From a virus: DNA of 38,531 nt. Location of the stretch: the IMG/VR virus record IMGVR_UViG_3300047311_000293, positions 1 through 38,531 of that record; one strand, written 5' to 3'. Position numbers and translations under genes: made by a program. Shown piece by piece: positions 1,732-22,971 of the stretch (positions are counted from its first letter, which is position 1; each line of letters begins with the position of its first letter). The notes below the pieces were generated by a model. The model ran no database searches. It saw nothing but the letters and a program-made list of their open reading frames with translations, and was not told the DNA's origin.

Positions 1732-1732
1732 A

Positions 1733-2020
1733 TTACTTCCCTTCCTTTTCTTCTTCCTTCACTCCCCAGTCAGCCACGATGTCCTCAGGCTTCTTAGGCA
1801 GGGGCTCACGCATGGACTTAAGCGCAGTCAACGCGCCCTTCCAGCCGTAAATCAGGCCAATCTCGTACATGGCCCCAGCACCATCACGGATTAGCTTCGG
1901 GTTGTTTGATGGGTCATCCTGCTCCAGGACGGCCAGCATGTGCTGCATGGCGGGCTGCTCCAGCACTACTGCGGCCAGGGCGAGCATGTCCCCGTTTTTA
2001 CGCCATTCCTGTAAGTTCAC
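1733..2020 (-). CDS. Small late-operon protein of unknown function (95 aa)
   Basis: I place the start at GTG 2020-2018: it overlaps the TGA of the upstream zinc-ribbon ORF (GTGA) and has a GGAGG exactly 5 nt upstream. A longer start at 2056 is possible but would overlap the zinc-ribbon gene heavily. The protein has an amphipathic helical core (MLALAAVVLEQPAMQHML), a central segment ending YEIGLIYGWKGAL, and a Lys/Glu-rich tail (GVKEEEKEGK). It sits just before the scaffold gene with translational coupling, so a role in head assembly is plausible. No family is recognised. Confidence 0.7.
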   Translation of the reverse strand: MNLQEWRKNGDMLALAAVVLEQPAMQHMLAVLEQDDPSNNPKLIRDGAGAMYEIGLIYGWKGALTALKSMREPLPKKPEDIVADWGVKEEEKEGK

Positions 2021-2130
2021 ACGCGCCTCCAGTTTCGGGTTTTGCACTTCGGGCACAGGCGGGGTTTACCGGGTTTGCGCGGCCACCATGTCCAACGACA
2101 CTTGCCGCACTTGAGCTTCTTTAAGGTCAC
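2017..2130 (-). CDS. 37-residue zinc-ribbon protein
   Basis: A short frame starting at GTG 2130-2128 encodes two CxxC knuckles, CGKC and CPKC, separated by a basic stretch WTWWPRKPGKPRL and ending TRNWRRV. The C-x2-C ... W-x-PR ... P-x-x-CPxC ... W layout is that of compact rubredoxin-like zinc ribbons in small nucleic-acid or protein-binding proteins. It fills the otherwise empty gap between the ATP-grasp stop and the 95-aa gene, and its stop overlaps the next start by GTGA, which argues for real translation. No strong Shine-Dalgarno is visible before it (AGCAGGT). Function unknown. Confidence 0.75.
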   Translation of the reverse strand: MTLKKLKCGKCRWTWWPRKPGKPRLCPKCKTRNWRRV

Positions 2131-2166
2131 ACCTGCTCTTATGCGAGCGGGCGCATTTCCGTCAAA

Positions 2167-3432
2167 CTAAAACTCAAGTCCCATCTCTTTCATGTGCTCA
2201 ATCTCCTCCAAGCCCTTATCGATGGACTCCATCTGGCAGTCCACGTAGTAGCCCTGCACCTGCCCGGCATTCTCCTTGGCCATCTCGATGGCGTCGTCCA
2301 GTGAATCCCCCATCCCGATGACCGCGCCAATCTCGGGCAGCCCCACCTCCTGCGGCACGCAGTAGTCCACCCCATCGATGCGGGTGTGGTTGCGTAGCTT
2401 CACGAAGGGCCGAATCTTCTCGGGAAACTTAATGGCCTGCCAGCCGTGGTCCGCCCAGGGGGAGTGAATCATGATTTCGCAGCCATACTCGGCCACCGGC
2501 ACGGGCTCCACCACCTCACCGTCCGCCCCCTCCCACATAATCTCGGCCCAGTTCTCGAACATCTCACAGTACAGCTCAGAGGGCGGGGAAGCAGCGCGGC
2601 AGCAGGGGTCAATCAGGAATGGCTTCTTGTCCTTGCCGTAGCGAATCTCCGAACTGAAGAACCCACGGTACTGGTAGTTCTTGAAGATGGGCGCGAGCGC
2701 ATCGTTCACCTGCAACGCAGGCGTGGGCATGTCCTCGTATTTGCGCACCCTCCCCAACGCTCCCAGGTCTTTGACTTCGATGCAAAGCATGGCGACGGGC
2801 GGGAAGTTGCCGTCAATGGTGAAACCATCGTAACCAATCTCCACCCGGTCGGGCAGGTCGTCCTCCACCACGAACTGGACGATCTTGGACTTGGCTCCCA
2901 GCTTGTGCTCCAGCTCTGCCACCTTCGGCTCGGACAGGTCGAACGTCTCGCTCTTGAACGTCTCGAAGTCGCCACGCATGGAGCTAATCTTTACCCATAC
3001 GTCATTGTGCTCCTTTAGGTATTTCTTCAGGTCTTCAGTGCCGGTGATTTCCTCATAGCCCCCTACGGGCAGTCCCAGCTTCTTGAGCAGCCTCTTAGTC
3101 TTGGCCCGGTTCAACTCCAGGTCATCGCCATACCTGGAACCCCACACCCGCTTACCCATATCCACCAGTTGCTCCTGCACGTCGGCGAAGTACACATCGG
3201 GGAACACCCACAAGTCCACCGAGTCCACGTACTCCCACATGTTCTTGATGCGGGTGATTCCCGGAATGCCATCACCCAGGATGAGGTAGTTACTCTTGGG
3301 GAACGCATCCACCCAGGGGGTAAAGTAGAGCACCTTGCCGAACGTCTCGGTGAGCTTCTCGGCCCAGAGCACGAACAGGCCATTATCCACCACGCAAACA
3401 GTCTTCTTGCTCAGGTCAGTCTTCGTCGTCAT
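2167..3432 (-). CDS. ATP-grasp fold ligase in the head gene cluster
   Basis: 421 residues. After an N-terminal Rossmann-like part (about 1-95), the ATP-grasp fold is visible: a linker helix region RAKTKRLLKKLGLPV (109-123), the nucleotide-lysine strand VWVKIS (K148), an acidic strand DRVEIGYDGF (E198), and the metal-binding strands SSEIRYG (E262) and LIDPCCRAASPPSEL (D275, R279). ATP-grasp enzymes form C-N or C-O bonds through acyl-phosphate intermediates. The usual E-x-N metal motif is replaced by D-P-C-C-R. The layout is nearer to GAR-synthetase or carboxylate-amine ligases than to RimK. It lies between portal and scaffold, an unexpected place for a metabolic enzyme, so a virion protein or peptide may be the substrate (inference). 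Its start overlaps the acidic ORF at 3416-3529. Confidence 0.82.
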   Translation of the reverse strand: MTTKTDLSKKTVCVVDNGLFVLWAEKLTETFGKVLYFTPWVDAFPKSNYLILGDGIPGITRIKNMWEYVDSVDLWVFPDVYFADVQEQLVDMGKRVWGSRYGDDLELNRAKTKRLLKKLGLPVGGYEEITGTEDLKKYLKEHNDVWVKISSMRGDFETFKSETFDLSEPKVAELEHKLGAKSKIVQFVVEDDLPDRVEIGYDGFTIDGNFPPVAMLCIEVKDLGALGRVRKYEDMPTPALQVNDALAPIFKNYQYRGFFSSEIRYGKDKKPFLIDPCCRAASPPSELYCEMFENWAEIMWEGADGEVVEPVPVAEYGCEIMIHSPWADHGWQAIKFPEKIRPFVKLRNHTRIDGVDYCVPQEVGLPEIGAVIGMGDSLDDAIEMAKENAGQVQGYYVDCQMESIDKGLEEIEHMKEMGLEF

Positions 3433-3529
3433 CGAATGTGTCGTATTTATCGCTCTTGAACCACTCGTCGGTCTTGATGTCGGACGCCCACTCCATGCGG
3501 TCGTCGTCAGATGGTACGGGGCAGTCCAT
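3416..3529 (-). CDS. 37-residue acidic ORF linking portal and ATP-grasp genes
   Basis: ATG 3529-3527 overlaps the portal stop (TAATG) and the frame ends at TGA 3416-3418, overlapping the ATP-grasp start by 17 nt. The sequence runs MDCPVPSDDDRMEW and ends DKYDTFDDDED: about a third of residues are Asp/Glu, with a few Lys, Ser and Thr. Overlaps at both ends match the tight spacing of this operon and suggest it is translated. It might be a small head protein, a DNA mimic, or a peptide substrate of the adjacent ATP-grasp enzyme, as with acidic graspetide precursors; this last idea is inference only. A second ATG (residue 12) is available. Confidence 0.6.
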   Translation of the reverse strand: MDCPVPSDDDRMEWASDIKTDEWFKSDKYDTFDDDED

Positions 3530-5841
3530 TATTCGCTGAAGGCTGAGTATCGTTTACGGCGCAAGTCAGCCGCCGTTTTCGCGTCGGCCAGGACCATGCC
3601 CTGCTGGGTCTTGCCCGCCGTTAGGGCCATGGATTGATCGTGTTTCTCCTGCTTCTGCCGCATAGCCTCGTTGGTCTTCTCGCGGGAGAGCTGGATCTTC
3701 GATTCCGTCTCGGCCTGCTTCAACTGCATCGAGTTCATCACCTGGTCCTGTTGTTGTTTGGCCTGCTGCTGCTGTTGGATATGCTGCTGAATCTGGCCCT
3801 GGAGTTTGTCGGCAATGCCACCCAGTTGCTTGAGCTGGCCTTCGACCATGGTGGCAATCTGCTTGTGCATCGGGTCCTTCTTAATCTCGGCCAAGTGTTG
3901 GGCGGTGTGAGCACCAGCCCCGTGAAGGAACGTCAGGACATGAGCTGGGTCGCCACCCTGCTTGAGTGAATTCACCGCATCCGAAGCAGCCTTCAGGTGG
4001 ACGGCGGCATGGACCACCGAGTTCTGGGTCTTGGTGATCATGACTGGGCTGCCGATGGAGATTGCGGCGTTTTCCAGGGTGGCGGTAGCTTGGTCGTTCT
4101 CCAGGTTTGGCGTCAGGCTGCTCTTGGGGTTCCAGCGACCCACGTTCTCACTGCCCGCCATGACGGAGATGGCGCTATCCAGCCAGTTCTGCTTGCCCGC
4201 TTCGTTCATCATCGGGACGAGCGTGGAAGTCTCCTGGATGGTTTGCTGGCGCATGAATAGGGAACCATTGCCCATGTTGCGCGTAGCCCGGACCCAGAGC
4301 GGCTTCAAGAGGCATTTAGCGGGCACCCCAGCTTCCTGGCACTTGCGCTGGAACTCCAGAGCCATGGAAGCGGGACCCCCGTTGTCATCGAACTGGTTTG
4401 GGTCAGCAGCCCTGCGGTACACCTCCTCGAAGATGCAATCCATCTGGGTGTTGAAACGGTTCACGGCACCCTTGCCCAGCATGGCTTCCTTGCTGGCGTC
4501 GAAGCTCACCTGCCGGGCGGTGGGCGGGTTACCCTGCTCACGGCTCATCGGGCGGCGATACTGGCCAGTGTTGCTCTCCAGTTTGTTGGAGAGCGACTGC
4601 TCGATGGCCAGTCCTTCCTCCATGCGGCCCGCGATACCCCACTGGGTAATCTCCAGGTTGGGCGGCAGCACGGAGAGCGGACCCAGTTGCATGATGGCCA
4701 TGGCTTCCTCGGCCCGGGCGGTGGTGGGCCGGGTGAGCACACTCATGTTGATGAAGGCATTGTCCACGATGGCGCAGTTGAGCCGGTTCTTGATTTCGAT
4801 GAACGGGTTCAACTTGATGGCCAGGCCCTTGATGGAATGCCAGGTGCCATCGCCAATGTCGTAGAAGACAGTGCCCACCACCTGGCGGAAACTATCGAAG
4901 CGTCCGATCTTCTTGTAGATGAACCGAACCCCATCCTGGCCCGTTGTCTCGTCCACCCACTTGCCGTCCTTGGCCGGGTAACGCTCCTCCACGATCAAGT
5001 GGCTCACCCTGCCATCGAACTCCTTCACGAACATATGGGCGCACTTGATGATGGAGGACTTCACCGTCTGGTAAAGGTCGTGGTTGCGCAGCTCCTTTTG
5101 CAACAGCTCGTAGTCCACGCGGGCGTTGTCGGTGTCGTACTCGGGCAGGGCGCGGTTGATGGCGTCCAGGGTGGCTTTGATGTCCCAGCCCACCGCCCGG
5201 GCAGTTTCCGTATTACGAATATGCCCGTAGAGTTCATGCACCGTCATCGACTCACGCACCACTAACAGCTCCAGTTGGTCTGGGTCCGAAGGCGTCTGGT
5301 CGGGCACCAGGATGCGGGTGTGCGGGATGGCCCGGTACTGCCAGTTGGTTCGGTTGGGCCACATGACGAAGCCCTTCCCGAAGCCCACCATGTCGTTAAT
5401 CATCTGCTGGGTGTTCCAGTCAAAGCCCGCCCACGATTTGAGCAAGTCATCGAAGTGCTGGGTGACGACACGGGAATACCTGGCCTTCTTGTCCTGGTCT
5501 GGCTCATCCACCTCAATCTTGCAGTAGGTGTCGGCCTCGGCGAATAGATCGTAGAAGGGCTGGCAGGCGGAGTTGAGGATAGCCTCGCCCTCTCGGAAGT
5601 TGACGTTGGTGCGGTAGGTCTGGCCCTGGCGGCGAAGCTCGTCATGGCTGTAGGGGGCGTTGCCGTCCAACATGCCCTTGGTCCTGGCATCCACCCGTGA
5701 GCGTTCCTGGTTGGCATAGATGAGCAGCCACACCATTTGCCCGGCCTTGTTGGGGTCGGAGAGCCGTTCCTCGGGCACCACGCCAGTCAGCGACGGTTTA
5801 GCCAACTGCATGGCGTCGATTTCTGCGGGAAGGTCTAGCAT
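3529..5841 (-). CDS. Portal protein
   Basis: 770 residues, a length usual for podovirus portals. The N-terminal half has the mixed alpha/beta pattern of portal wings (NVNFREGEAILNSACQPFYD, VGFGKGFVMWPNR, IPHTRILVPD). The middle holds a long helical crown-stem region (NRLNCAIVDNAFINMSVLTR), and the C-terminus has a Gln-rich coiled coil (IQQHIQQQQQAKQQQDQ) as in many barrel-type portals. The portal forms the dodecameric DNA entry ring at one capsid vertex and binds the terminase. The order terminase, Cys-rich protein, portal, scaffold supports the call. Its start overlaps the upstream stop as TAATG, indicating coupling. Confidence 0.88.
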   Translation of the reverse strand: MLDLPAEIDAMQLAKPSLTGVVPEERLSDPNKAGQMVWLLIYANQERSRVDARTKGMLDGNAPYSHDELRRQGQTYRTNVNFREGEAILNSACQPFYDLFAEADTYCKIEVDEPDQDKKARYSRVVTQHFDDLLKSWAGFDWNTQQMINDMVGFGKGFVMWPNRTNWQYRAIPHTRILVPDQTPSDPDQLELLVVRESMTVHELYGHIRNTETARAVGWDIKATLDAINRALPEYDTDNARVDYELLQKELRNHDLYQTVKSSIIKCAHMFVKEFDGRVSHLIVEERYPAKDGKWVDETTGQDGVRFIYKKIGRFDSFRQVVGTVFYDIGDGTWHSIKGLAIKLNPFIEIKNRLNCAIVDNAFINMSVLTRPTTARAEEAMAIMQLGPLSVLPPNLEITQWGIAGRMEEGLAIEQSLSNKLESNTGQYRRPMSREQGNPPTARQVSFDASKEAMLGKGAVNRFNTQMDCIFEEVYRRAADPNQFDDNGGPASMALEFQRKCQEAGVPAKCLLKPLWVRATRNMGNGSLFMRQQTIQETSTLVPMMNEAGKQNWLDSAISVMAGSENVGRWNPKSSLTPNLENDQATATLENAAISIGSPVMITKTQNSVVHAAVHLKAASDAVNSLKQGGDPAHVLTFLHGAGAHTAQHLAEIKKDPMHKQIATMVEGQLKQLGGIADKLQGQIQQHIQQQQQAKQQQDQVMNSMQLKQAETESKIQLSREKTNEAMRQKQEKHDQSMALTAGKTQQGMVLADAKTAADLRRKRYSAFSE

Positions 5842-6449
5842 TAGTTCTTTCTACACCAGCACCACTGGGGCAGGCCAGCCAGTGTTTCCGGGGTCATGTG
5901 TTGTTGAAGCAGGTCCAGTGGAATCCAAACCTTGGCCTTGAGCGAACAGCCGCACGCCGCGCAGACGCCCAGCATGGAGTCGGCGTTAACTTCCTCCCCG
6001 CCCACGACGGAGTTGACCACCTGGCGGATGGTGTTCATGGAGCAGGTAGTGCAAGAGGAAGTAGGCTGGTTAGCGGGACAGGATGCACAGATATTAGCAC
6101 GAGTGTTGGCTTCCTCCCGAGTAACTTTTTGCCTACCTCCTATAAGGAATTTCCCCAGGACGACGGTCGCGGCCAGGACATCGGTCAGGTTGAGTTGATG
6201 ATAAGTGAAGGCCGGTTCGGTCTGGTGATTGCACGTTCCTGGCGGCATGCCCGTGCAAAGCTGGTCTTCCACGATCTGGTCCATCTCACTGGAGATGGGA
6301 AGGTTGTTGGCGGTGCGGTGGCGGGTGACGGCACTGACCAACTCGTGGTAGGACGCAGCACTGACCCAGGTCTGGGTTTCCCGGTTTAGATATTTGAACC
6401 CGCCTGGAGGCACCGTACCGCGATCAATCAGCTTAAGCATACGGACCAT
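5841..6449 (-). CDS. Cysteine-rich metal-binding protein between terminase and portal
   Basis: About 202 residues if started at MVRMLKLIDRG (ATG 6449-6447) or 199 from the next ATG (6440). The frame is open further upstream, but that would overlap the terminase by 86 nt. It carries four cysteine clusters: CASCP, CTTC, a CAACGC, and a terminal WCWCRKN. The segment MLGVCAACGCSLKAKVWIPL looks like a second zinc or iron-sulfur knuckle. An N-terminal alpha/beta part contains RQKVTREEANTRANIC leading into the first knuckle. The family is familiar as an unnamed phage protein beside terminase/portal genes. A role in packaging or head completion is likely only from position. Confidence 0.75.
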   Translation of the reverse strand: MVRMLKLIDRGTVPPGGFKYLNRETQTWVSAASYHELVSAVTRHRTANNLPISSEMDQIVEDQLCTGMPPGTCNHQTEPAFTYHQLNLTDVLAATVVLGKFLIGGRQKVTREEANTRANICASCPANQPTSSCTTCSMNTIRQVVNSVVGGEEVNADSMLGVCAACGCSLKAKVWIPLDLLQQHMTPETLAGLPQWCWCRKN

Positions 6450-8211
6450 CCGAGTACTGCATGTCAGATTCGTAGATGGAATGGGCCTTATCCGCAAGCT
6501 GTTTCCAGTTGGACACACCCCTGGACTGGCCGGTGGAGATGCCCCCAGCCAATGCCCCGAAGCGGGTCCGGCACAAGTCGAGCATGACGAAGGCGCAATC
6601 GGCGATGTCGGGAGAAAAGCTGATGCGCTTCTTCATGTCCTTCTTGGTTTCCACCCGGACGCGCAAGCCTTCCGCCCCCTTCACCGTGTCGTACTTGCGG
6701 GCCTTCATCTCCCTGGCCATGTCGTCGGTCACGCCTTTGATCTGCCCATACTTCATGAACTCCCGGCCCACCCACCACAACTCCGACACCCTGCGGTCAT
6801 ACTTGTCGCAGGAGAGCGTGGGGTCGGTGGCACTGACCTGAAGCTGGCTGGCCTTGCCTGAGAAGTTAATCCCGGCCACCCGGTCGTTCCACTCCTCGTG
6901 GATAATGGAGAGCAGGACAGCCCCGGCCCCCGTGGAATCCAGGCCGCAATTCTCCGGCGAAACTGCACGCTTAATGCAGTTGTCTCGGAACAGCCGGGCA
7001 ATCTGGTAGTCACGAGGCACCTTCACGCTAGCGTTATCGTGCAAGGGGATCACCTCGTCGTATTGCAGCACCCAGATCCCCTTACTGTCCTTGCCCCAGC
7101 GACCGAAGATTTGAATGGCCCTGTCGCCGTCGTTGGTGAAGGCGGGGTCCAGGGCAGAGACAGGGGTAGGCTCAAACATCCAGGTGACCTGGTCCATGGC
7201 GTTCCCGGCAATCATGTCGGCGTCGGAGTAGATGACGTTCTCCCAGCCGATGGGGGAAGGGAACGAACGGCACATGCGCCAGAAGCCAGCCGAGTTCTCT
7301 CCGAAGTTGTTCCGGTGCTCCTTTAGGTGGCGGGAGTTGTAGCAGGGGTACTCATTCTCCTTGCTGCGGCCTTCGAGAATGTTGGGCGACTTCAACCCAT
7401 CAAAGCGGATGCAGTAGCCCTTCTCGGTTTCCCACTCCAGGCTATCCTCGGTGATTTCCTTGTAGCCACCCTTGGGCCGGACAAACACACCAAGGGGGTC
7501 ATAGATGCTGTTGAAGTTGCCGATGCCCACCATTTGGAACGTGGCCCCCTCGCCCACCTGCACGGTGAGGTTGGAGTAAGCCGCCTCCATCAGAGCCTCG
7601 GAGAGTTCGGGCAGCTCATCGGCGATGAGGAAGACGTGCTTGTTCTTCATGCCGATCAGTTTGCCGATGGCTTCCTTCTCCTTCTTCTTCTCGCCTGCGA
7701 TCAAGGCAATGCCGGATTTGTCGTTGTTAGCTTCACCCGTGTTCTCGTCGATGGTGCCAATCATGCCCACCGAATCCTTGAGCTTGCCGGGCAGCTTCAC
7801 CACTGAAGCCTGGAAGTAGGCGGTGGCCGATCCCCAGATGCGCTTGCGGGAATCCTTGAGCGAGGTGGAGGTAAGGAGCACCAGGCTGTTCACTGGATCA
7901 CAAAGCCAGTTAATGATGCCCCAGACAGCGGCGGCATCGGTCTTGCCAGAGGAGGCGCAACCCACCACACCCAGGTATTGGCGCTTGCACAGTTCGTGGA
8001 TCATCTTCTCGGCCCAGGGATGACGCAGGAAGGGCTTGGTGCTCTTGGGTGGCCAGAGCAGGCTGGCAATGTTCCAGAAGTAGTTCTCCCGACCAATGCC
8101 ACCCACGGCAGCGGGCGGATCGAGGCGGAAGGCGATCATCTCCACCTCCAGCTCATTAAGCTGCATAGGGTGCTGGATGCCGTAGGGATAGCGATAGAGT
8201 TTTTCAGCCAT
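6433..8211 (-). CDS. terL: Terminase large subunit (packaging ATPase-nuclease)
   Basis: 592 residues. The N-terminal ATPase has Walker A GCASSGKT (84-91) and Walker B VFLIADE (193-199) ending in the catalytic glutamate. The RNase H-like nuclease half shows ALDPAF (D355), CGLDSTGAG (D425) and an acidic SPDIADCAFVMLDL near residue 545, the usual metal-binding carboxylates. TerL cuts concatemeric DNA and pumps it into the prohead through the portal. It starts the left late block and is divergent from the plus-strand SLOG gene. No Shine-Dalgarno is visible before ATG 8211 (TTTATTTTTATGG); an internal Met at residue 16 is an alternative start. Confidence 0.94.
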   Translation of the reverse strand: MAEKLYRYPYGIQHPMQLNELEVEMIAFRLDPPAAVGGIGRENYFWNIASLLWPPKSTKPFLRHPWAEKMIHELCKRQYLGVVGCASSGKTDAAAVWGIINWLCDPVNSLVLLTSTSLKDSRKRIWGSATAYFQASVVKLPGKLKDSVGMIGTIDENTGEANNDKSGIALIAGEKKKEKEAIGKLIGMKNKHVFLIADELPELSEALMEAAYSNLTVQVGEGATFQMVGIGNFNSIYDPLGVFVRPKGGYKEITEDSLEWETEKGYCIRFDGLKSPNILEGRSKENEYPCYNSRHLKEHRNNFGENSAGFWRMCRSFPSPIGWENVIYSDADMIAGNAMDQVTWMFEPTPVSALDPAFTNDGDRAIQIFGRWGKDSKGIWVLQYDEVIPLHDNASVKVPRDYQIARLFRDNCIKRAVSPENCGLDSTGAGAVLLSIIHEEWNDRVAGINFSGKASQLQVSATDPTLSCDKYDRRVSELWWVGREFMKYGQIKGVTDDMAREMKARKYDTVKGAEGLRVRVETKKDMKKRISFSPDIADCAFVMLDLCRTRFGALAGGISTGQSRGVSNWKQLADKAHSIYESDMQYSDGPYA

Positions 8212-8339
8212 AAAAATAAATCTTGCGCATATTCACCAGGCTGCTTACATAGCCACCATGAACTGCAACATACTCTTGCGAGCATGGCAGAGACACCTGA
8301 AGCTGACAAAGCTGTACGAGCGGCAACATTCGTCCAAAC

Positions 8340-8681
8340 ATGAGAACGATCATCGCCGGAAGCCGGGACATCTGGGTTCGCGCCGAAGTGTGGAAGGCCA
8401 TCGAAGCGTGCGGCCACGACATCACTGAGGTGGTCTGCGGGGAAGCCCGTGGGGTAGATGCCCTGGGCAAAGCCTGGGCCTTTGAGAATGGCGTTCCCGT
8501 GAAGTCCTTCCCGGCCAACTGGGACAAATACGGCAAGGCGGCTGGAGCCATCCGCAATGAGGCCATGGTAGCCTACGCCCAAGCGGCTATCGTCATCTGG
8601 GATGGGGCTTCGCCGGGGTCGGCGGACATGATTCGGCGGGCCGAGAGGGCTAACCTGAAGCTACACATCCACCGGGTGTGA
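8340..8681 (+). CDS. SLOG-family (DUF2493/YspA-like) nucleotide-binding protein
   Basis: 113 residues that match the whole YspA-type SLOG domain: MRTIIAGSRDI at the N-terminus, CGEARGVDALGKAWA (the G-x-G-x-D loop), FPANWDKYGKAAGAIRNEAM, and a C-terminal WDGASPGSADMIRRAE. SLOG domains bind nucleotides or nucleotide-derived signals. Small free-standing copies are frequent in phages, with no settled function. The gene begins the plus-strand accessory block, divergent from terL, with a 128-bp gap in between. The length is normal for the family. Confidence 0.9.
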   Translation: MRTIIAGSRDIWVRAEVWKAIEACGHDITEVVCGEARGVDALGKAWAFENGVPVKSFPANWDKYGKAAGAIRNEAMVAYAQAAIVIWDGASPGSADMIRRAERANLKLHIHRV

Positions 8682-9134
8682 AAAAAACTATTGACGAGTG
8701 TGGGCTGTATGGCCTATTCGTCTCGTCCGTCAGAGATGCCTGATTGGAAACAGGTGCGGATGAAGATTTCTGAACGGTCTAGCAACTTCGGCTTTTCCGC
8801 TCAGGGGCCTCGAAAGAGGCATTCTCCTCCGCATTGAGATTTCCAACCTGAGCGGGATCTTTTTTCCCTTTGTCTCCGATGGTTTGCCTAATCGGCGGGC
8901 TACGTCCTCAGAGCTGACGACCCGGAAACCTGGCAGCGGGCCAGGGGTGAGACAGACCTGGACAGCAGTGGCAGAAGAACCTGCCAGCCACTCAGTCAAC
9001 CCGAGGTGGCCGAAAGCTGAACCGGGAGGGTGCCCTGCGACGCTTGGCTCCAAAAGTGCAGAAGGCAAATCTGAGCTGGCCCTGGTAAAACAGGGTAAAA
9101 GCTCTGCTTTCACCAAAAGTGCAGTTGTTCGTAC
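8682..9134 (+). ncRNA. 453-bp noncoding stretch rich in hairpins, candidate structured RNA
   Basis: No convincing gene is seen here. The stretch opens with a TTGACG (8691-8696) that could be a -35 box, though the -10 match is weak. Perfect short stems follow: GCCTC-GAAA-GAGGC with a GNRA loop (8807-8820), CCAGG...CCTGG (8941-8961), TGGCAG-AAGAAC-CTGCCA (8969-8986) and CCCTG-GTAAAA-CAGGG (9080-9095). The 12-mer CCAAAAGTGCAG occurs twice (9050-9061, 9113-9124). An HNH nuclease gene starts directly after. A structured RNA, an intron remnant or an untranslated leader are all possible; strand and ends are guesses. Confidence 0.35.
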
Positions 9135-9620
9135 ATGCTTAATGCTGACATGAAGAAGAACGGGGACAGCGAATACCAGGATGTTAGATGGCAAAAGCGG
9201 CGTCTTGAAATTCTCCGGGCTCACAACTGGACATGCCATCTCTGCGAGACTAAAGCCACCGATGCCATGCTCCATGTTCATCACTTGCGCTACCAAAGGG
9301 GCACACCAGTATGGGAGACGGACAATTTCAACCTCACAGTGCTCTGCAAATCCTGCCATGAAAGGGTTACCGATTTGAAGACCAGGCTGGGGGCTAATCT
9401 ACATTCCAGGAGAGTTTTCGAGATGATGCGAGCTGTGGCGAATCTCATTGAGGATGACATAGCCGGAAATGGAGAAAATCTTGGCCCCGGAACCGATGCC
9501 TTGTTCTGTATTAGAGTCACGGCTGAAACAATGGCCAATTTGGTTGTAATAGCTGGACGAGGTATAGTCGCGGAAGAACTATTATCCGAAACCTTGAACA
9601 AGGATCAAAATAAGCATTGA
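9135..9620 (+). CDS. HNH endonuclease
   Basis: 161 residues. The HNH/Zn module is clear: CHLC (C34, C37), HVHHLRY (H49-H50), FNLTVLCKSCHE (C71, C74, H75). This is the McrA-like layout, where the first histidine acts as base and the last residues bind metal. The C-terminal half (about 85-161) is helical and unassigned. A second Met at residue 6 is an equally likely start. It is isolated from the chained genes downstream and follows the hairpin-rich region, which fits a mobile or homing-type nuclease. A role in packaging is less likely since it is far from the terminase and on the other strand. Confidence 0.88.
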   Translation: MLNADMKKNGDSEYQDVRWQKRRLEILRAHNWTCHLCETKATDAMLHVHHLRYQRGTPVWETDNFNLTVLCKSCHERVTDLKTRLGANLHSRRVFEMMRAVANLIEDDIAGNGENLGPGTDALFCIRVTAETMANLVVIAGRGIVAEELLSETLNKDQNKH

Positions 9621-16345: not shown

Positions 16346-16743
16346 TTCCACTCGCCTTAGCCCGAGCCCTACCCGTCATCGCTCTGTTTGAACTGGTACG
16401 CTTCTTCTTCCCGGCCCCCTTCGTCATGCCGGTGCATCTGGCCCACCGGGAGGTGTGGGTGACCAATGTGGTGGTAAAGTGGCACACCAATGAGATCGAG
16501 CAGGTATTCTCCAGGACCATTCTCCCAACTCCGCCCCAAGCCATCTTCACCCACCCCATCGGCATCCCGGAAGGCCGCTACCAGACCAACCTGATGATAT
16601 GGGCCGACATGACCAACACAGCCCTCCGCGATTCCGTTGCTTCTGTCCCCAATACCATCTTCATCAGGCAGCCCATGTGGACCAATGGCATCGTCATCCG
16701 CCGTGGCGACACCATCACCAATGTCTATAGCTGGGAGAACTGA
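16342..16743 (+). CDS. Secreted or membrane-anchored protein (133 aa)
   Basis: The ATG at 16342 overlaps the previous stop and starts a hydrophobic N-terminus (MIPLALARALPVIALFELV) that serves as signal or anchor. The rest is beta-rich with many Thr/Asn residues (VWVTNVVVKWHTNEIEQVF, GIVIRRGDTITNVYSWEN). It is the last plus-strand gene before the convergent GIY-YIG gene. Export beside the Tat protein suggests a shared envelope function. Confidence 0.65.
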   Translation: MIPLALARALPVIALFELVRFFFPAPFVMPVHLAHREVWVTNVVVKWHTNEIEQVFSRTILPTPPQAIFTHPIGIPEGRYQTNLMIWADMTNTALRDSVASVPNTIFIRQPMWTNGIVIRRGDTITNVYSWEN

Positions 16744-16750
16744 GCATGCA

Positions 16751-16987
16751 TTACCTGGGCAGCATGTTCTTGTTATGAGTCGCTTCTCCCTTCGCCCTGT
16801 ACTCTGCGATTAGCTCCCGCTCATCCTTCAGCCCAAGACTTCCAGTCTCTCGCAGCACCTTGAACTGCTGGCCGGGAAACCTCCGCTTGTGTGCATATTC
16901 CCGGCGTATCAACCGACAAGTGTGCCCAACGTACAGGCATTTCCCGCCTTCAAAGATCCCATAGATGAACATTCTCTCAGAAGTCAT
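16751..16987 (-). CDS. GIY-YIG family nuclease (78 aa)
   Basis: The frame from ATG 16987 (MTSERMF) holds the GIY-YIG signature: IYGIFEGGKCLYVGHT, then LIRREYAHKRR (the catalytic Arg) and ELIAEYRAKGEATHNKN with the metal-binding Glu. The length covers the complete minimal domain with no DNA-binding extension. It could be a small free-standing homing nuclease or a repair-type UvrC-like enzyme. It lies 8 nt from the convergent end of the plus-strand block, at the border of the minus-strand island. An in-frame start further upstream (17065) is less likely. Confidence 0.85.
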   Translation of the reverse strand: MTSERMFIYGIFEGGKCLYVGHTCRLIRREYAHKRRFPGQQFKVLRETGSLGLKDERELIAEYRAKGEATHNKNMLPR

Positions 16988-17325
16988 GCTTCCACTCTGA
17001 CCATTCCTTGGATAGTTGCAATCCCCGAGCATACCCTGTACGCATGCTCGAATTCCAGGTGTCAAAAACCACCCACATTTATTTTCACCTATCCCCCAAG
17101 CCCTTACACGAATTAGCCACTCTTTTCCCTTGCCAAATACGCCCCGAAACTCTCCCCTAGTACCCCTCTCCCCGTATGCTGTAGCACGTTGATCATGCTA
17201 CGCTCTGTCCCTGCCAGAGCACATGGCCCTTGCACGCTGTAGCTGCATGGCTCTTGAACCTGCTTAGTGTAGTAGCTACCCGAATTTTCCTCATACCACC
17301 CCTACGCTTTCAACCATGCCACCCG
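16988..17325. other. Intergenic region with short inverted repeats
   Basis: No gene is seen in this 338-bp AT/C-rich stretch between the GIY-YIG start and the end of the HTH gene. It contains an imperfect palindrome GTAGCACG...CATGCTAC around 17187-17207, another CGCTGTAGCTGCATGG near 17235, and the motif GCTTAGTGT at 17262-17270. That motif also occurs in the 22.0-kb regulatory array. It could hold the promoter and operator of the GIY-YIG gene. Confidence 0.4.
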
Positions 17326-17835
17326 TCAAAGGGGGGAAGGGCTCTCTGGGGCCTCTGGGCTGAGGGTTAAAGCATGCTTAGTGTCCAAGCCAAGCGGCTC
17401 AGTGTTGGGCAATGCCTGCACGGTGGCGAGGTTGAGCACGCCAATGCGAACGCTTGCCTTGCTGCCGTCGTCGTTGCCCCAACCGAACACGGTCTTGGCA
17501 TTGCGCACGAGTGGCTCTAGCTCGCTCTGGATGCGTGTCGCATGCTTGAAGCCTCGTGGACGTGGTATGGATTGCGCCGTCTCTACTATGCTGCGTCCCA
17601 ATGCCTTGCGCGTGTCTGCCGAGTAGCCTGCCAGGACGTGATCGATAGTCTTCTCTACTACCCGAACCGAGTCTGCTTCTATGGCGTCGCGTAGTTGTGA
17701 CCATTGCCCCCGCACTGCACGTTGCCGAACGGCGTCCGGGTTTGCGCCTATCCGCTTGGCAATGGCGTGGTGTGGCAATCCCTGTGCGAATAGGGTTTGC
17801 GCGAGTAACCAATCAGGGGCAGGACGTTCGGCCAT
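17326..17835 (-). CDS. HTH protein, possible small terminase subunit or regulator (169 aa)
   Basis: I take ATG 17835 (AGCCTATG context) over an upstream TTG. Residues 10-48 form a helix-turn-helix: WLLAQTLFAQGLPHHAIAKR, IGANPDAVRQRAVRGQW. A central helical part (ADTRKALGRSIVETAQSIPRP) and a segment VFGWGNDDGSKASVRIGVLN follow, then a disordered Pro/Ser tail. N-terminal HTH plus helical middle is the build of small terminases, and the W-ending recognition helix is common there, but the gene is 9 kb from terL. A TTGACA lies 33-38 nt upstream, so it may be transcribed separately from the amidoligase operon. Confidence 0.65.
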   Translation of the reverse strand: MAERPAPDWLLAQTLFAQGLPHHAIAKRIGANPDAVRQRAVRGQWSQLRDAIEADSVRVVEKTIDHVLAGYSADTRKALGRSIVETAQSIPRPRGFKHATRIQSELEPLVRNAKTVFGWGNDDGSKASVRIGVLNLATVQALPNTEPLGLDTKHALTLSPEAPESPSPL

Positions 17836-17843
17836 AGGCTCGC

Positions 17844-17873
17844 AGGCTAGTCCTGTCTGGCGGGGGGTGTCAA
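17844..17873 (-). promoter_or_regulatory. Candidate promoter for the HTH gene
   Basis: On the minus strand a perfect -35 TTGACA (17873-17868) is followed, 18 nt later, by a poor -10 TAGCCT (17849-17844). Transcription would begin about 2 nt before ATG 17835, giving a nearly leaderless message. The weak -10 keeps confidence low. Confidence 0.3.
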
Positions 17874-17955
17874 GGTAGCGGGCAGGCAATCAAAGTCGCT
17901 CTGCGGGCAACGTGGGGACTTGTGAGTGTTTGCTTACTTGCGTAACCCGTTGGGA

Positions 17956-17991
17956 AAAGGAAAAGCCCCGGAAGCTTGGGGCAACCGGGGC
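17956..17991 (-). terminator. Intrinsic terminator of the amidoligase operon
   Basis: Read on the minus strand: GCCCCGG, a 13-nt loop, CCGGGGC, then CTTTTCCTTTT. The 7-bp G/C stem at 17965-17991 followed by a T-rich tail fits a rho-independent terminator. It lies downstream of the 218-aa gene (ends 18091) and upstream of the HTH gene, so it separates the two. Confidence 0.65.
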
Positions 17992-18018
17992 GGGTTGGGG
18001 TTGGGTGCGGGGTGCGGG

Positions 18019-18075
18019 TTACATAGGTTTAGAAAGAGAAGTCCCCGGGAGCATGCAACAGCCACACTCCCGGGG
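18019..18075 (-). promoter_or_regulatory. Strong hairpin followed by a start-stop element (AAACCTATGTAA)
   Basis: On the minus strand a perfect 9-bp stem CCCCGGGAG/CTCCCGGGG with a 15-nt loop (18043-18075) precedes ATG TAA (18024-18019). The ATG has exactly the AAACCTATG context of real early genes but is followed immediately by a stop. It lies between the 218-aa gene and the terminator. It may be a ribosome-trapping start-stop element or the fossil of a deleted gene. Confidence 0.4.
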
Positions 18076-18090
18076 GTGTTTGGTTAACGG

Positions 18091-18747
18091 TCAACCCCGG
18101 GTTGGCGTGCTGACAACCTCCGCCGTCTCAGGCATGCGAGGATTCTTCTCGCAAAGTTCCTTCGTTGGAATGTTCAACAGAGCCTGCCCGAGCGTGAACA
18201 GATTTTGTTCACTTGACTCTACACACGCCAGAAACGCGGCCGCCTCATCCGCCGTAGCCGGGCGAACGTCCGAACGGGCAATGTAGTTGCCCCCGTACGG
18301 CTCAAGGACCGTCGAAGTAACCTGTGCTTCCTCCTGTGCCGTTTCCGGGGTTGGCGCAAGGCGAATAAAGTTGCCCCCGCGGTTTAGACTCAGGACAACT
18401 TGCCCGTTCTGGCAATGGTGGCCGGCACTGTTGCCCGTGACAACCCCAAGGCGCAACCGTCCCAAACGATCAACCCGTTCGGCGTAACGGTTGTCTACCA
18501 TCTTACGGGGGATCTTCCGCCCCGTGACAAGCTGCGCAAACTTGCGAGCTTTGTCCGTATGGCAACCGAACGGTTGACCGCGCAGGAAGTCCGCAATCTC
18601 GGCAATGTCCGGGACGGCGGGGGCAGACGTAGTTTCTGCCGCTGGACTAGCAGCAGCAGCAGCAATCGCTTCTGCCCGTTTCACTTCCCTACCGTGTTTC
18701 TCGCGCACCATTGCGATCACGAATTTGGCTAACTCTTGGATCTTCAT
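18091..18747 (-). CDS. Unknown partner gene in the amidoligase operon (218 aa)
   Basis: The start at ATG 18747 (MKIQELAKF, preceded by AACCACAAATG) is preferred; 18792 is also open. The N-terminal helix is basic, residues 30-55 are Ala-rich and disordered, then comes a region DFLRGQPFGCHTDKARKFAQ. Two similar segments follow, GGNFIRLAPTPETAQ and GGNYIARSDVRPATADEAA, each with GGN-[FY]-I, which suggests a duplicated motif. It ends with TPTRG. It is not recognised. Tight linkage with the amidotransferase and amidoligase makes it a candidate substrate, carrier or accessory of that pathway. It is the last gene before the terminator. Confidence 0.7.
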   Translation of the reverse strand: MKIQELAKFVIAMVREKHGREVKRAEAIAAAAASPAAETTSAPAVPDIAEIADFLRGQPFGCHTDKARKFAQLVTGRKIPRKMVDNRYAERVDRLGRLRLGVVTGNSAGHHCQNGQVVLSLNRGGNFIRLAPTPETAQEEAQVTSTVLEPYGGNYIARSDVRPATADEAAAFLACVESSEQNLFTLGQALLNIPTKELCEKNPRMPETAEVVSTPTRG

Positions 18748-18818
18748 TTGTGGTTTGTTTTTGGTTACTTGCTCGCCGGGGGTTGGCGTCATGCCAACTT
18801 ACCCGGGAGCAAAAGTGT

Positions 18819-19952
18819 TTAGTCGATGTATCCGAAATGTTCCCGGACTTGCGCTTCTAGCGTTTCCTCCGCCGTTGGCGGGGTGTGGTTCACGCCTAAG
18901 ACTTGCGCCGTAGTGGCTTTAGGACGGTAGTCGCTAGGCTGTGCCCCCGTGGTAATGAGTCCAGAGGAATTGGGGGTGCGCTCGCAACCAACCTTTGAGC
19001 TTTCGCAATTGCCTTGCGCTGAGTCCGCTTTCGGGGAGTCCGAATCCGAACGGGGGGTTGGCGGTTGACTCGCCCCGCTTGCCCCGCCCGCGAAAAAACC
19101 CGCTTCCCCTTTGCCGTTTCCGTTGCCATTGGCGTGTCCGGTTTCCGTCCCATAGGCGCGATCGTATTGGCGGTTATACGTCTGCCCCGTATTGGTTCCA
19201 AATCCAAGCCATTCTTCGTCATGGAACATGATTCCCGTGCGGTCGAAGAACATGAGCCGGGTTGGAACCTTGATCGGACACGTCGCAAGGCTAATCCCTG
19301 CTTCCTTGGCAACGTCCACTAGATCCTCCGGCCTAGTGGCGAAGATCCAGCCTTCGCCCCGTGCGCGACGCGAGCAGAATAGTTGCGCATTGTCCTGCCC
19401 GATTACCGTAACCCCATCCTGGCTGTTGGTGAGCACTACCGCACCGAACCCGCCCCAATGGGACACGGCGTCATGCCAAGCGCCAGTCCCCCGGGTGAGC
19501 CACCGTAAATACTGTTCGCTATCGCAACCGTGCGGGGTATCGGGGGCAGGACCGTTGCCTTTCCAGTGGACTACGCCATTGTGCGCAAGGAAGTAGTCCC
19601 CCGCCTTTTCCCCCGTTTCAACCGTGTCCCGGAAGGGATGGACGTTGCCAAGGCAGACACGGTTTGTGGACGTTCGGCCATGCGCGATCAATACCGTGGA
19701 CGTTGCTGGGAGTTTGCCAACCTCAGAGGACTCCGATTGCAGAAACGGGGGCAGAAGTGAATCCTGCCCGATACCGTAAAACTTTTCAGGATCCGCGTAA
19801 CGGCACCAAGCTAGATCCTCAGGACCGGAACCAACAGAAACAAAGCCGTAGCCGTCCCGTTGCCCGAAACGGTATTTGCTGTTAATGGCAACGACTGCCT
19901 TTGCCTGAGTTTGCCGGTTTAATCGGCCAGTAATCACATAGAGTTTACACAT
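18819..19952 (-). CDS. Class II glutamine amidotransferase (Ntn hydrolase)
   Basis: 377 residues. MCKLYVITG puts the nucleophile Cys at position 2, exposed after Met removal. The other class II markers are present: HGRTSTN (91-97), AHNGVV (123-128) and CDSEQYLRWL (143-152). The domain hydrolyses glutamine and passes ammonia to a partner. No synthetase or isomerase domain is fused: after residue 250 comes a Gly/Asn-rich, then Ser/Pro-rich, tail (GNGNGKGEAGFFAGGASGAS) and a C-terminal helix. An amidoligase next door would be the natural partner, a pairing predicted for several phage and bacterial operons by comparative studies of amidoligases. Start context AAACCTATG. Some members act as peptidases rather than ammonia donors. 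Confidence 0.93.
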   Translation of the reverse strand: MCKLYVITGRLNRQTQAKAVVAINSKYRFGQRDGYGFVSVGSGPEDLAWCRYADPEKFYGIGQDSLLPPFLQSESSEVGKLPATSTVLIAHGRTSTNRVCLGNVHPFRDTVETGEKAGDYFLAHNGVVHWKGNGPAPDTPHGCDSEQYLRWLTRGTGAWHDAVSHWGGFGAVVLTNSQDGVTVIGQDNAQLFCSRRARGEGWIFATRPEDLVDVAKEAGISLATCPIKVPTRLMFFDRTGIMFHDEEWLGFGTNTGQTYNRQYDRAYGTETGHANGNGNGKGEAGFFAGGASGASQPPTPRSDSDSPKADSAQGNCESSKVGCERTPNSSGLITTGAQPSDYRPKATTAQVLGVNHTPPTAEETLEAQVREHFGYID

Positions 19953-19974
19953 AGGTTTTTGGTTTGGTTAACGG

Positions 19975-21144
19975 TTAGAAAACGTTGTCAGCGGTGCAAT
20001 TAGTTGCGTAGGGGTTGTAAGTGTTGGCACGGCGTCGAATGCTAGGACCGCGCCGGGTTGGACGTGTAGGTAACGGCCTAGGACCGGGGGGAACGATACC
20101 GGGGGCAAGTGGGACGGGAGAAGACCATACCCCGGGTTCGTCCACATCGTCCAACAGATCGTCCCGTTCGAGTGTGGCCAAGGCGCGATCTTTGAACCCG
20201 TGCGGATAAAGCTGCCCGTGCCACTTCAACACCCATTCACCAAGCTTAGTCGGCATAAACCCGGCAAGATCGCGTAGTGTCTTGGGGGTGTGATCGGTAA
20301 TGGCGCAAAAGTTCGTGAGCCATTGGCAGACAAGTCCCCATTTTTCTATTGTCTTGGTGTCGATGGATCCGCCTTGGCAACGGTATTCAATCGTCCCGTG
20401 TTTGCTGAACGATTGCCAATTAGCGGCGCAATATCTATCTGCCCAATTGGGTGTTAGCGGTCCGTTGTTTAACCATCGGCAATAAGAGCAGGTGTGGCGA
20501 TCAACTGGCACAAGAGCCCGCAAGAGATGGTAGCACGCGACAATGTTTTGATACGCAACCTCAGGGGTAGGTAAGTGTCTAACGTCCACGTGAACATGTA
20601 GCCCACACCTTTCCGTAACGTGTCCACGTATGGGAAGGGAGCGCAACCCGGCAAGAATTCCCTTTTCGTCCTGCCAGCTAATACGGCGGACTTCCACCCC
20701 GTCCGAACCTATGGAACCATCCCTGCCAACCCTAGTCAGCGGATTAGGGGGCAACGCTTCAATCTCCTCTCGGTTGCGGGGGTAGTACTCGATTTCAATT
20801 CCCAAGAGTTTGCCGGTAAGCCATGGGATACGTTTAGGATCTTGGTTTTTAACCTCCGCCCGCATTCCTTCCCGCCGTCCCGTGATCCGCGTTTCGTTGC
20901 GTATCGTTCGGCAATCGTTCGCGGAATACATCCGTAAGCATCGGTCCGGGACGGGGTGTCGCAATTGCTCGGCAAGGAGTGTTTGGCTTGCCCGCATGGG
21001 TGCGCCGTGGACGGGCAATACAATAGAGCGCAAAAGATCGATCTTCTCCTTGCGCTCCTTGGGCTTGTCCCGGGGGGTTAATGTCAACCGTTCGTCCATA
21101 GACTTGCGGTAGTCCTCGAAAGTACTGACAACACGGTAATTCAT
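19975..21144 (-). CDS. Amidoligase (COOH-NH2 ligase, glutamine-synthetase-like fold)
   Basis: 389 residues. The amidoligase_2 motifs are all visible: GIEIEYYP (115-122; metal-binding Glu pair), RDGSIGSDGVEVR (141-153), CGLHVHVD (180-187) and TIEYRCQGGSIDTKTIEKW (251-269, with the ATP-contacting Arg and the GS pair). Such enzymes join a carboxylate to an amine using ATP. The basic N-terminal 105 residues contain two Cys (CLRMYSANDC) and the C-terminus is Pro/Arg-rich. The gene begins by ATGA overlap with the 106-aa gene and lies 22 nt before the amidotransferase, so the three are cotranscribed. The substrate is unknown; modified peptides, cell-surface polymers or nucleotides are all possible. 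Confidence 0.93.
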   Translation of the reverse strand: MNYRVVSTFEDYRKSMDERLTLTPRDKPKERKEKIDLLRSIVLPVHGAPMRASQTLLAEQLRHPVPDRCLRMYSANDCRTIRNETRITGRREGMRAEVKNQDPKRIPWLTGKLLGIEIEYYPRNREEIEALPPNPLTRVGRDGSIGSDGVEVRRISWQDEKGILAGLRSLPIRGHVTERCGLHVHVDVRHLPTPEVAYQNIVACYHLLRALVPVDRHTCSYCRWLNNGPLTPNWADRYCAANWQSFSKHGTIEYRCQGGSIDTKTIEKWGLVCQWLTNFCAITDHTPKTLRDLAGFMPTKLGEWVLKWHGQLYPHGFKDRALATLERDDLLDDVDEPGVWSSPVPLAPGIVPPGPRPLPTRPTRRGPSIRRRANTYNPYATNCTADNVF

Positions 21145-21461
21145 ACGGCGAAAGATTGATCAATGGTTTCCGGGGTTGCGGGTTGATCGGGGGTTGCGGG
21201 CAACACAAGCTTGCGCCAACAGTGAACAAAACCCCATTGATCAACGAATGCTTCGAAAGCGCCGTCTTTTTGCCAGGATAGGTTAGCCCGGAACCATCCC
21301 CCGGGGTGTAGGTAGAACAGTGGGAAGCCTAGCATTATGGCAAAGCCAAAGCGCCGATCTTCGGGCAGGCAGTCTAGGGCGGGGGGTATTTGCCAGCGTC
21401 CGTTGGCGTAGTCGGGTTTCTGGAAACGGCTTTGTGAGCCATCCGGGAGTTTTGGATTCAT
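21141..21461 (-). CDS. First gene of the amidoligase operon, unknown (106 aa)
   Basis: ATG 21461 (MNPKLPDGS) is taken as start since it has the conserved AAAACCTATG context; the frame is open to 21587. The protein is beta-rich and aromatic: GRWQIPPALDCLPEDRRFGF, FPLFYLHPGGWFRANLSW, FVDQWGFVHCWRKLVLP. It ends with a short Pro/Thr stretch. No family is recognised. Its stop overlaps the amidoligase start as ATGA, indicating translational coupling and a close functional link. Confidence 0.7.
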   Translation of the reverse strand: MNPKLPDGSQSRFQKPDYANGRWQIPPALDCLPEDRRFGFAIMLGFPLFYLHPGGWFRANLSWQKDGAFEAFVDQWGFVHCWRKLVLPATPDQPATPETIDQSFAV

Positions 21462-21587
21462 AGGTTTTTGGTTATGGTTTGCTATTTCGGCAATGCGCCG
21501 TGGTGTTACTATCGCCAGTAACCCGCTTAGTGTGAAGTCTTTTCTTCGAATTTCTTCAGGCGGGGGAAAACGGGCAAAAACCGGCAA

Positions 21588-22171
21588 GAATTACCTAGCT
21601 GTTAAACGCTCTAGGATTCGATATAGCGCGCCGCACCCCCCGCCCGCCCCTACGATAAGGGGGTAGTATTGGCTTTCTTAGCTAACACTAAGCGGATTAG
21701 AGAGTTAACCTATGGTGAGTGTTTGCTAACCCGGACAAATCAGAATGGCCTATAAGTCGAAATGTAACGCTAAAGTAAACAACCCCGCTATATACTATAC
21801 GTCCACGGTTTCCCGGGTTGGGTGAATACACCCAATTACCCCTTGCGCTCCCGGGCGGGGTTGCTAGACTTTGCGCCGTGTTAGCTTGCCCGTATCCCCA
21901 ACCTCAGGAGAGGCTTTCAGACTCCCCGGGTTGCTTCGCGTTTCCCGCCCCGTGTTCCCCCGTTGGACGGCTTTGAACCGTTGGCGGGGTGTGGCGGGGC
22001 GGGGTGGCTTAGTGTGGGACGGACACTAACAGGCTTAGTGTATTGTTTACACTATGCCGGCGGCTTGGCTGGGGTTGGAAATCGTGGCGGAGCGCAGGGG
22101 CCAGGGGCCAACCACCGATCTAGCCACTCGTTTTGGTTATGCGGATTTTGGGTCCGCCAGAGGCAGGAACT
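21588..22171. other. 584-bp noncoding control region
   Basis: No gene is visible between the amidoligase operon and the small basic gene. Contents: motif GCTTAGTGT in several copies (21525-21533 just inside the flanking frame, 21685-21693 reversed, 22007, 22033), an AACCTATG with a five-codon frame MVSVC (21712-21729), an AT-rich CTATATACTATAC about 21788-21800 that could hold a -10 box, G/C palindromes CCCGGG at three places, and the inverted-repeat array at 22007-22054. The region most likely holds the operon promoter (minus strand) and its operators. Confidence 0.55.
22007..22054. promoter_or_regulatory. Two adjacent operator-like inverted repeats (TTAGTGT half-sites)
   Basis: Site 1: TTAGTGT (22009-22015), 7-nt spacer, ACACTAA (22023-22029). 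Site 2: TAGTGTA (22036-22042), 5-nt spacer, TACACTA (22048-22054). Arms are perfect. The centres are 26 bp apart, about 2.5 helical turns. The shared core suggests a dimeric repressor binding twice. Candidate binders in this window are the HTH protein (17326-17835) and the small basic protein (22172-22399). Confidence 0.65.
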
Positions 22172-22399
22172 TTAGGCCGGTTGCTTTTTGTGGGCTCTGT
22201 AGGGCCAGCGTTTTTGCCGGGCCTTGGCTAAATTCTCACTGGATGCCTGGCTTTTCCTCTTGGTGATGGTGTGGCCACCTTTCTTGCCGTTACGGGAAGC
22301 CCACTGTCTGACTTCTTTGGGGACGCGAGATTTCATAAAGTGCTTGCCAGAATAAGCTGGTTGGTGTTGGGTGTCAACCGTGCGCTCCCGTCCGCTCAT
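22172..22399 (-). CDS. Small basic protein, possible DNA binder (75 aa)
   Basis: The start at 22399 has the AAACCTATGAGC context seen in other early genes, which is the strongest reason to accept it. The protein is very basic: VPKEVRQWASRNGKKGGHTI, TKRKSQASSENLAKARQKRW, resembling short phage proteins with an ASRxGKKGG / LAKAR pattern. The 5' leader can form a 6-bp hairpin CGCCGG/CCGGCG (22408-22428) ending 7 nt before the AAACCTATG. It reads away from the promoter at 22.47 kb. Confidence 0.6.
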   Translation of the reverse strand: MSGRERTVDTQHQPAYSGKHFMKSRVPKEVRQWASRNGKKGGHTITKRKSQASSENLAKARQKRWPYRAHKKQPA

Positions 22400-22468
22400 A
22401 GGTTTGTCGCCGGGGTTGAAATCCGGCGCTTTTCAGGGCGGGGGCGCATTTCCCTTTAAAATTCCTTG

Positions 22469-22496
22469 TTGACATTATCACTGAGCCGATTATTGT
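22469..22496 (+). promoter_or_regulatory. Early promoter for the plus-strand recombination genes
   Basis: TTGACA (22469-22474, perfect -35), 16-nt spacer, TATTGT (22491-22496, 4 of 6 for -10). Predicted start about base 22503. This leaves either a leaderless ATG at 22504 or a 52-nt leader to the better ATG at 22555. The sequence in between is A/C-rich (AACC repeats). Confidence 0.6.
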
Positions 22497-22554
22497 CGGC
22501 GTCATGAATGCAAATGGCATCATCGAACAAACCGAAAACCAAACATCAAAACCT

Positions 22555-22971
22555 ATGAGCGTATTCAAAACCCATGCTTCCCACTGGCACACTCAGCGCG
22601 AGCTGATCCAAAAGACCGTGGACGACTTTGTGGCCAAGTTTCCCAAGGCCCAGAAGGTGGCTTGGAAGATGGTCCTGCGGACTAATTCCGACTTGCGCGA
22701 GCAACTGGGATTCACTAATCCCCTGGAGCGGAAGCAACTGGCCAACTTTAGCTACTGGTTGCGCCGCAACATCTCCAACTACCCGCAAAAGCTGACCCGA
22801 GCCTACAGGGGCCGCAAGGACCGCAAGCCCACTGTGCGCAGGCTGAGCAAGGACGAGTCCTTTAACTACGTGGCTCCAGTAGTCGATTACACGGAACCGG
22901 CCAAGGGTTCCAGGAAGTGGGCCTTGGAGGATTGCAACTTCTGCCCCGTGTGCGGTAAGCCTCAGCATTAA
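22555..22971 (+). CDS. Early protein with C-terminal zinc knuckle (138 aa)
   Basis: The start MSVFKTHASHW at 22555 carries the AAAACCTATG context; an in-frame ATG at 22504 would add 17 residues and be leaderless. The protein is helical and basic (VAKFPKAQKVAWKMVLR, FSYWLRRNISNYPQKLTRAY), with a C-terminal CNFCPVCGKPQH that probably binds zinc. It is the first gene of the early operon. It may be a DNA-binding or regulatory protein; no family is recognised. Confidence 0.75.
   Translation: MSVFKTHASHWHTQRELIQKTVDDFVAKFPKAQKVAWKMVLRTNSDLREQLGFTNPLERKQLANFSYWLRRNISNYPQKLTRAYRGRKDRKPTVRRLSKDESFNYVAPVVDYTEPAKGSRKWALEDCNFCPVCGKPQH

Follow-up and report, generated by a model that had tools for sequence, protein, structure and literature searches.

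Four genes are closely packed on the minus strand of the IMG/VR viral record IMGVR_UViG_3300047311_000293, a record classed as linear, the whole of which (38,531 bases) forms the window analysed here. They encode, in order, a 106-aa orphan protein, a predicted amidoligase of 389 aa, a predicted class II glutamine amidotransferase (GATase) of 377 aa and a 218-aa orphan protein, and the list of open reading frames bears out all four as an earlier note on this DNA had described them (Table 1). The 106-aa and amidoligase genes overlap by ATGA, end to start, the GATase gene follows after a gap of 22 nt and the 218-aa gene after a further 71 nt, or 26 nt if its start is placed at 18792; an upstream TTG start would lengthen the first product of the operon to 148 aa.

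Table 1. Features of the operon and its flank, with positions in the window
Feature	Position	Strand	Basis
Leader AACCAAAAAC, 106-aa gene	21464..21473	-	Exact motif
106-aa orphan gene, first of operon	21141..21461	-	ORF; leader AACCAAAAACCT directly before ATG
Amidoligase_2 (COOH-NH2 ligase) gene, 389 aa (predicted)	19975..21144	-	PF12224 match
Leader AACCAAAAAC, GATase gene	19955..19964	-	Exact motif
Class II (Ntn-type) GATase gene, 377 aa (predicted)	18819..19952	-	GlmS profile, active site, predicted fold
Strong RNA hairpin in the gap from GATase to 218-aa gene, no U tract	about 18768..18813	-	MFE -28.8 kcal/mol, z -5.9, 0/200 shuffles
Leader AACCAAAAAC, 218-aa gene	18757..18766	-	Exact motif
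218-aa orphan gene, last of operon	18091..18747	-	ORF; leader AACCAAAAAC before ATG at 18747
Terminator-like hairpin after operon, then ACTTCTCTTT	18043..18075	-	13-bp stem, weak T tract, z -3.6
Flanking HTH gene, possibly terminase-small-like	17326..17889	-	Weak PHROG matches

Leaders, hairpins and composition of the operon

The exact leader AACCAAAAAC has three copies in the whole record, one ahead of each of three genes (106-aa, GATase and 218-aa) and 2 or 9 bases from the ATG. The leader supports our choice of start codons, but related A/C-rich leaders of the form '...AAACCTATG' precede a few other genes of the same phage, so it is not private to the operon. These A/C-rich leaders lack an obvious Shine–Dalgarno sequence, as do the leaders of related GATases, and may reflect a host that makes little use of Shine–Dalgarno pairing.

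An intrinsic terminator had been proposed at the end of the operon. The hairpin itself is present (Table 1), but its T tract is weak and the region holds no excess of terminator-like sites (6 versus 8.9 in shuffled sequences). The stronger hairpin between the GATase and 218-aa genes contains GCTCCCGGG, which recurs in the terminator-like hairpin and in two other places, and a comparison of positions 16500-22600 with Rfam gave no match. Nor could we substantiate a control region belonging to the operon, as five promoter-like sites were found where 3.3 were expected and none of these stands out. The proposal that the operon is set off by its composition holds for third codon positions, where GC3 is low in all four genes (0.56-0.62 versus 0.63-0.82 in 15 main structural and replication genes), but not for overall GC, which at 0.55-0.58 does not stand apart (comparison range 0.475-0.62). 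Two small accessory genes have a similarly low GC3 (0.51 and 0.59).

The predicted amidoligase and glutamine amidotransferase

The 389-aa protein matches PF12224 (Amidoligase_2) with 32.9 bits against a curated Pfam cut-off of 22, and the same family was matched by all 12 of the aligned amidoligase relatives. The motifs GIEIE, DGS, CGLHVH and TIEYR are present together with R216 and R237. Across the 12 sequences, D142, S144, C180-G, H183-V-H185, R216, R237, T251, E253 and R255 are invariant and E117 nearly so. A sequence search of the PDB yielded no match for this protein. The retention of the ligase-core residues and the above-threshold domain match agree with the earlier assignment, and the 389-aa protein belongs on this basis to the Amidoligase_2 enzymes.

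The 377-aa protein consists of a domain of about 260 aa and a low-complexity C-terminal tail. By itself it scored 15.1 bits against Pfam GATase_6, below the cut-off of 27, which is a curated threshold rather than a defining biochemical feature; nine of the 13 aligned members matched this family. The motifs C2, H91xR93, N103xHP, H124-N-G and D144 are all invariant in 38 homologues, and C2, R93, N125-G126 and D144 align to the GlmS site. A profile built from the 38 sequences matched GlmS at 2e-15, followed by PurF and asparagine synthetase (AsnB), and EgtC weakly at about 8e-4. An AF2 model of the protein (pLDDT 90.7) has the GlmS glutaminase 1xff as its best PDB match (E 7.3e-9, probability 1.00, TMq 0.55), with PurF also among the top matches, while the closest viral GATase matches in BFVD were Gn_AT_II or CW02-type proteins and not the protein of phage Vid5. 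The invariant residues, the alignment to GlmS and the predicted fold thus uphold the assignment as a class II glutamine amidotransferase with Cys2 and a full set of motifs.

Conservation of the amidoligase–GATase pair across phages

No usable locus came from scanning IMG/VR with the four proteins singly, and the loci compared here were obtained by profile scans. A GATase gene lies directly downstream of the amidoligase gene (-60 to 200 nt) in 47 of 129 amidoligase loci, and this adjacency rises to 54 loci when the interval is widened to -200 to 300. A same-strand GATase is absent from the locus in 70 of the 129, and the many amidoligases without such a neighbour indicate that ammonia is not always the amine used. 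In the clade closest to our sequence (18 distinct contigs) the GATase follows the amidoligase in every locus long enough to tell, with a score of 17/17 for the newly fetched loci, some of which are contigs fetched a second time. Distances between amidoligases correlate with those between GATases (r 0.73, 35 dereplicated pairs), a value matched by none of 2000 permutations, and the same pair is found in the UFV-P2 and OM43 phages. This recurrent adjacency and parallel divergence strengthen the partnership of amidoligase and glutaminase that had been suggested from the operon itself. Of the four genes, the middle two alone form what is, by these comparisons, a conserved unit.

The closest relatives of the pair, from uncultured phages (L009-L013 and L164-L180), are about 32-39% identical in the best segment of the amidoligase and 28-34% in the GATase. 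They share the gene order, the short gaps and an A/C-rich leader before the GATase gene with the operon described here but differ in having no 106-aa or 218-aa gene and, in those loci that extend far enough, in that the pair is divergently oriented beside terminase genes. Separately, in about 17 of the 54 loci (including L009-L013, L017, L019, L020, L022, L032 and L036-L038) a gene for the small terminase subunit lies within three genes of the pair, and these subunits represent two or more families; the pattern may have arisen through shared ancestry of these phages.

The 106-aa and 218-aa orphan genes

For the 106-aa protein there was no relative, and for the 218-aa protein no convincing relative, in Pfam, PHROGs, NCBIfam, PADLOC, phage records or IMG/VR. 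Neither gene occurs beside another amidoligase–GATase pair in the 132 loci of our first collection or the 18 loci of the closest clade, and nothing convincing turned up in 18 records of phages related by terminase; the scans of these collections used exact 8-residue patterns and are of correspondingly limited sensitivity. In codon scoring the annotated frame of both orphans was the best of six, with a model that discriminates poorly even for the amidoligase. An AF2 model of the 218-aa protein, made without homologues, reached a pLDDT of 42 and was not used. PbeC was considered as an identity for this protein following a weak partial PADLOC match (0.0097), and was rejected as a likely chance match.

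The duplicated GGN-[FY]-I segments that had been described in the 218-aa protein do not survive scrutiny, as the sole stretch shared between them is of five residues and the best self-alignment was equalled or bettered by 16 of 200 shuffles. With the repeat within chance, and with no relatives and no occurrence of either gene beside other pairs, the role of substrate or carrier assigned to one or other of these proteins loses its footing. In a peptide tag or RiPP-like system with a dedicated substrate, such a protein would be expected to stay with the ligase, and neither orphan does. The earlier note had itself reasoned that unknowns never co-occurring with an amidoligase would speak against a single system, and this is largely what we see for the two partners, but not for the enzyme pair. 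By these sequence comparisons, the two orphans have the look of accessory genes particular to this lineage rather than conserved parts of the amidoligase module, and they may still matter to this phage.

Genomic setting and acquisition of the cassette

Contig L153 overlaps the record with 99.7% identity over 7,147 bases and runs on past its left end, which indicates that the record covers part, not all, of the genome of a tailed phage. ORFs resembling portal and terminase genes were assigned from relatives and position; the relatives of the terminase are limited to uncultured viral contigs (26-53%) and one near-identical contig, with Vibrio phages matching weakly. In the most complete syntenic relative, G008, other small genes, none of them for an amidoligase or GATase, fill the interval between a gene similar to the HTH gene flanking our operon and a homologue of the Erf gene downstream of it. 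Likewise, no amidoligase or GATase was present in the relatives found through the terminase, many of whose records are partial. The low GC3 and the absence of the cassette from the corresponding interval of G008, the one syntenic relative from which the boundary is drawn, point to acquisition and are in keeping with the earlier description of these genes as cassette-like. The four-gene cassette thus looks acquired.

Positions 1-9579 of the near-identical contig L153 extend the phage leftwards. By eye, they hold the methyltransferase gene that is cut at the left end of the record, two ORFs resembling glycosyltransferases, one resembling a capsid gene and one resembling a fibre gene. At the other end of the record, a 116-aa ORF (38179-38529, minus strand, 5'-open) has a strong SPASM domain (PF13186, 9.7e-17), adjoins a tail-fibre-like gene and represents the C-terminal part of a radical SAM/SPASM protein truncated where the record stops. 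Together, the genes of L153 and the SPASM gene suggest decoration of the virion surface. Within the structural module, a 421-aa ORF (2167-3432, minus strand) appears ATP-grasp-like by eye and has a weak match to PurD (NCBIfam 0.0013, PDB 0.14); its sole relative found is in the near-identical contig, and a comparison with tf_24 gave no significant similarity.

Discussion

Phage amidoligase modules have been described since 2009 (Iyer et al. 2009; Hardies et al. 2013; both cited through PMC5498523 and PMC10580990), and podovirus 'peptidoglycan modification' cassettes are carried by phiEco32, 7-11, RIO-1, PSA-HP1, tf, LUZ24, PaP3 and CW02. The operon resembles these cassettes in having an Amidoligase_2 gene immediately followed by a class II GATase gene on the same strand, in an early or accessory region and not among the structural genes. 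Phage tf provides a close parallel, as tf_21 (amidoligase) and tf_22 (GATase) are both matched by our profiles and the pair has a small unknown gene on either side; the products of those genes, tf_20 and tf_23, are unrelated in sequence to the 106-aa and 218-aa proteins that occupy the same positions here. In contrast to the full cassettes of the RIO-1, phiEco32 and LUZ24 type, a profile seeded on phage gamma-glutamyl cyclotransferases (GGCT) found none in this incomplete record, and the operon has orphans as neighbours in place of a RimK-like ATP-grasp protein and a second COOH-NH2 ligase. The chemistry of the pair could therefore be different or simpler. Among Arthrobacter cluster AL phages (Kovu, LiSara), the amidoligase is followed by a GATase in Kovu, as here, with a GGCT gene directly upstream, unlike here. 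On sequence grounds, the pair belongs to a known phage module and the two extra genes beside it are the part without a counterpart in the collections searched.

Class II GATases free ammonia from glutamine, and ATP-dependent ligases of the amidoligase type join a carboxylate to an amine. When the two are found together, glutamine-dependent amidation is the simplest reading, and the pair probably draws ammonia from glutamine for transfer to an acid group of some kind in the host cell. In such a pathway, the class II glutaminase, with Cys2 exposed on removal of Met1, would hydrolyse glutamine and supply ammonia, and the amidoligase would spend ATP on activating a carboxylate and join that ammonia to it as an amide. 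Similar in principle are MurT/GatD and the AsnB/LtsA-type enzymes, in which a glutaminase feeds ammonia to the ATP-dependent amidation of a cell-wall carboxylate; MurT/GatD pairs a Mur ligase with a GATase of class I and is not homologous to the amidoligase of this record. By analogy, the acceptor would most likely be a host cell-envelope peptide or another host metabolite, and the host surface may be altered against superinfection, as proposed for the phiEco32, LUZ24, tf and RIO-1 phages. The passage of ammonia from one protein to the other, the nature of the acceptor and the gain for the phage are what we infer here. Alteration of the host surface, which the earlier note listed as an alternative, is the published interpretation of such modules, put forward in the form of a hypothesis that host peptidoglycan is modified against superinfection (PMC5498523; PMC10580990). 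The literature cited names no substrate for any phage member, and the cell-wall role has the standing of a hypothesis there too. On balance we lean slightly towards an acquired amidoligase–glutaminase cassette performing ammonia-dependent amidation, with a host envelope peptide or other metabolite as the most likely acceptor.

The main biochemical rival is a gamma-glutamyl add-and-remove cycle, in which the amidoligase would couple an amine to a gamma-glutamyl group, or to some other amino acid, and the class II Ntn enzyme would act as a hydrolase of gamma-glutamyl amides. Precedents exist in EgtA/EgtC of ergothioneine synthesis and in the ligase and BtrG of butirosin synthesis, and EgtC is an enzyme that hydrolyses gamma-glutamyl amides and feeds no ammonia. 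An Ntn site with R93 and D144 would fit any gamma-glutamyl group, the GATase profile does detect EgtC, and phage amidoligases repeatedly have a gamma-glutamyl cyclotransferase as neighbour; however, EgtC ranks far behind GlmS and PurF in both profile and fold and the present record yielded no cyclotransferase, so that we regard this cycle as unlikely while taking it seriously. Modification of a nucleotide or DNA base, with the pair amidating a modified-base precursor of the phage DNA, draws on the BFVD match to Pantoea phage Vid5, where a class II GATase is fused to 7-cyano-7-deazaguanine synthase. The closest viral amidotransferases are nevertheless of other types, as described above, and the record proteins that were scanned (a subset of the ORFs) included no base-modification, queuosine-type or thymidylate-synthase-like match, which makes this reading very improbable.

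The remaining alternatives give the orphans a part in the system. The earlier note favoured an amidated or isopeptide tag or product made by the enzymes, for which the 218-aa or 106-aa protein would serve as substrate or carrier. Membership of a single operon, an exact leader before three of the four genes and low GC3 in all of them are consistent with this, but the orphans accompany no other amidoligase–GATase pair and appear in no collection searched, the GGN repeat is within chance and the enzymes are kept elsewhere as a unit of two genes on their own; we consider such a tag improbable. An anti-phage or anti-host, toxin-like cassette, with the orphans as effectors that the enzymes modify or activate, would suit the accessory position, the composition and the small size of the orphan genes. 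Yet the PADLOC defence models matched none of the other three proteins and the 218-aa protein just through the partial PbeC match already dismissed, and no known effector domain was found, so the idea of an anti-phage cassette receives no convincing backing and a toxin-like function is likewise highly improbable. Least probable of all, in our judgement, is that the 218-aa (or 106-aa) protein serves as a dedicated, phage-specific acceptor that the pair amidates or couples; if true, this would be the first module of its kind in phages to come with a genetically linked protein substrate.

Amidoligase–glutaminase pairs are widespread in phages, and in the literature their role is still a hypothesis. 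Our survey suggests that the transmissible core of these modules is exactly two genes, which remain neighbours in many lineages of phages and have diverged in parallel. A two-gene core narrows experiments to the reconstitution of two proteins, and the two orphan neighbours drop out as necessary parts.
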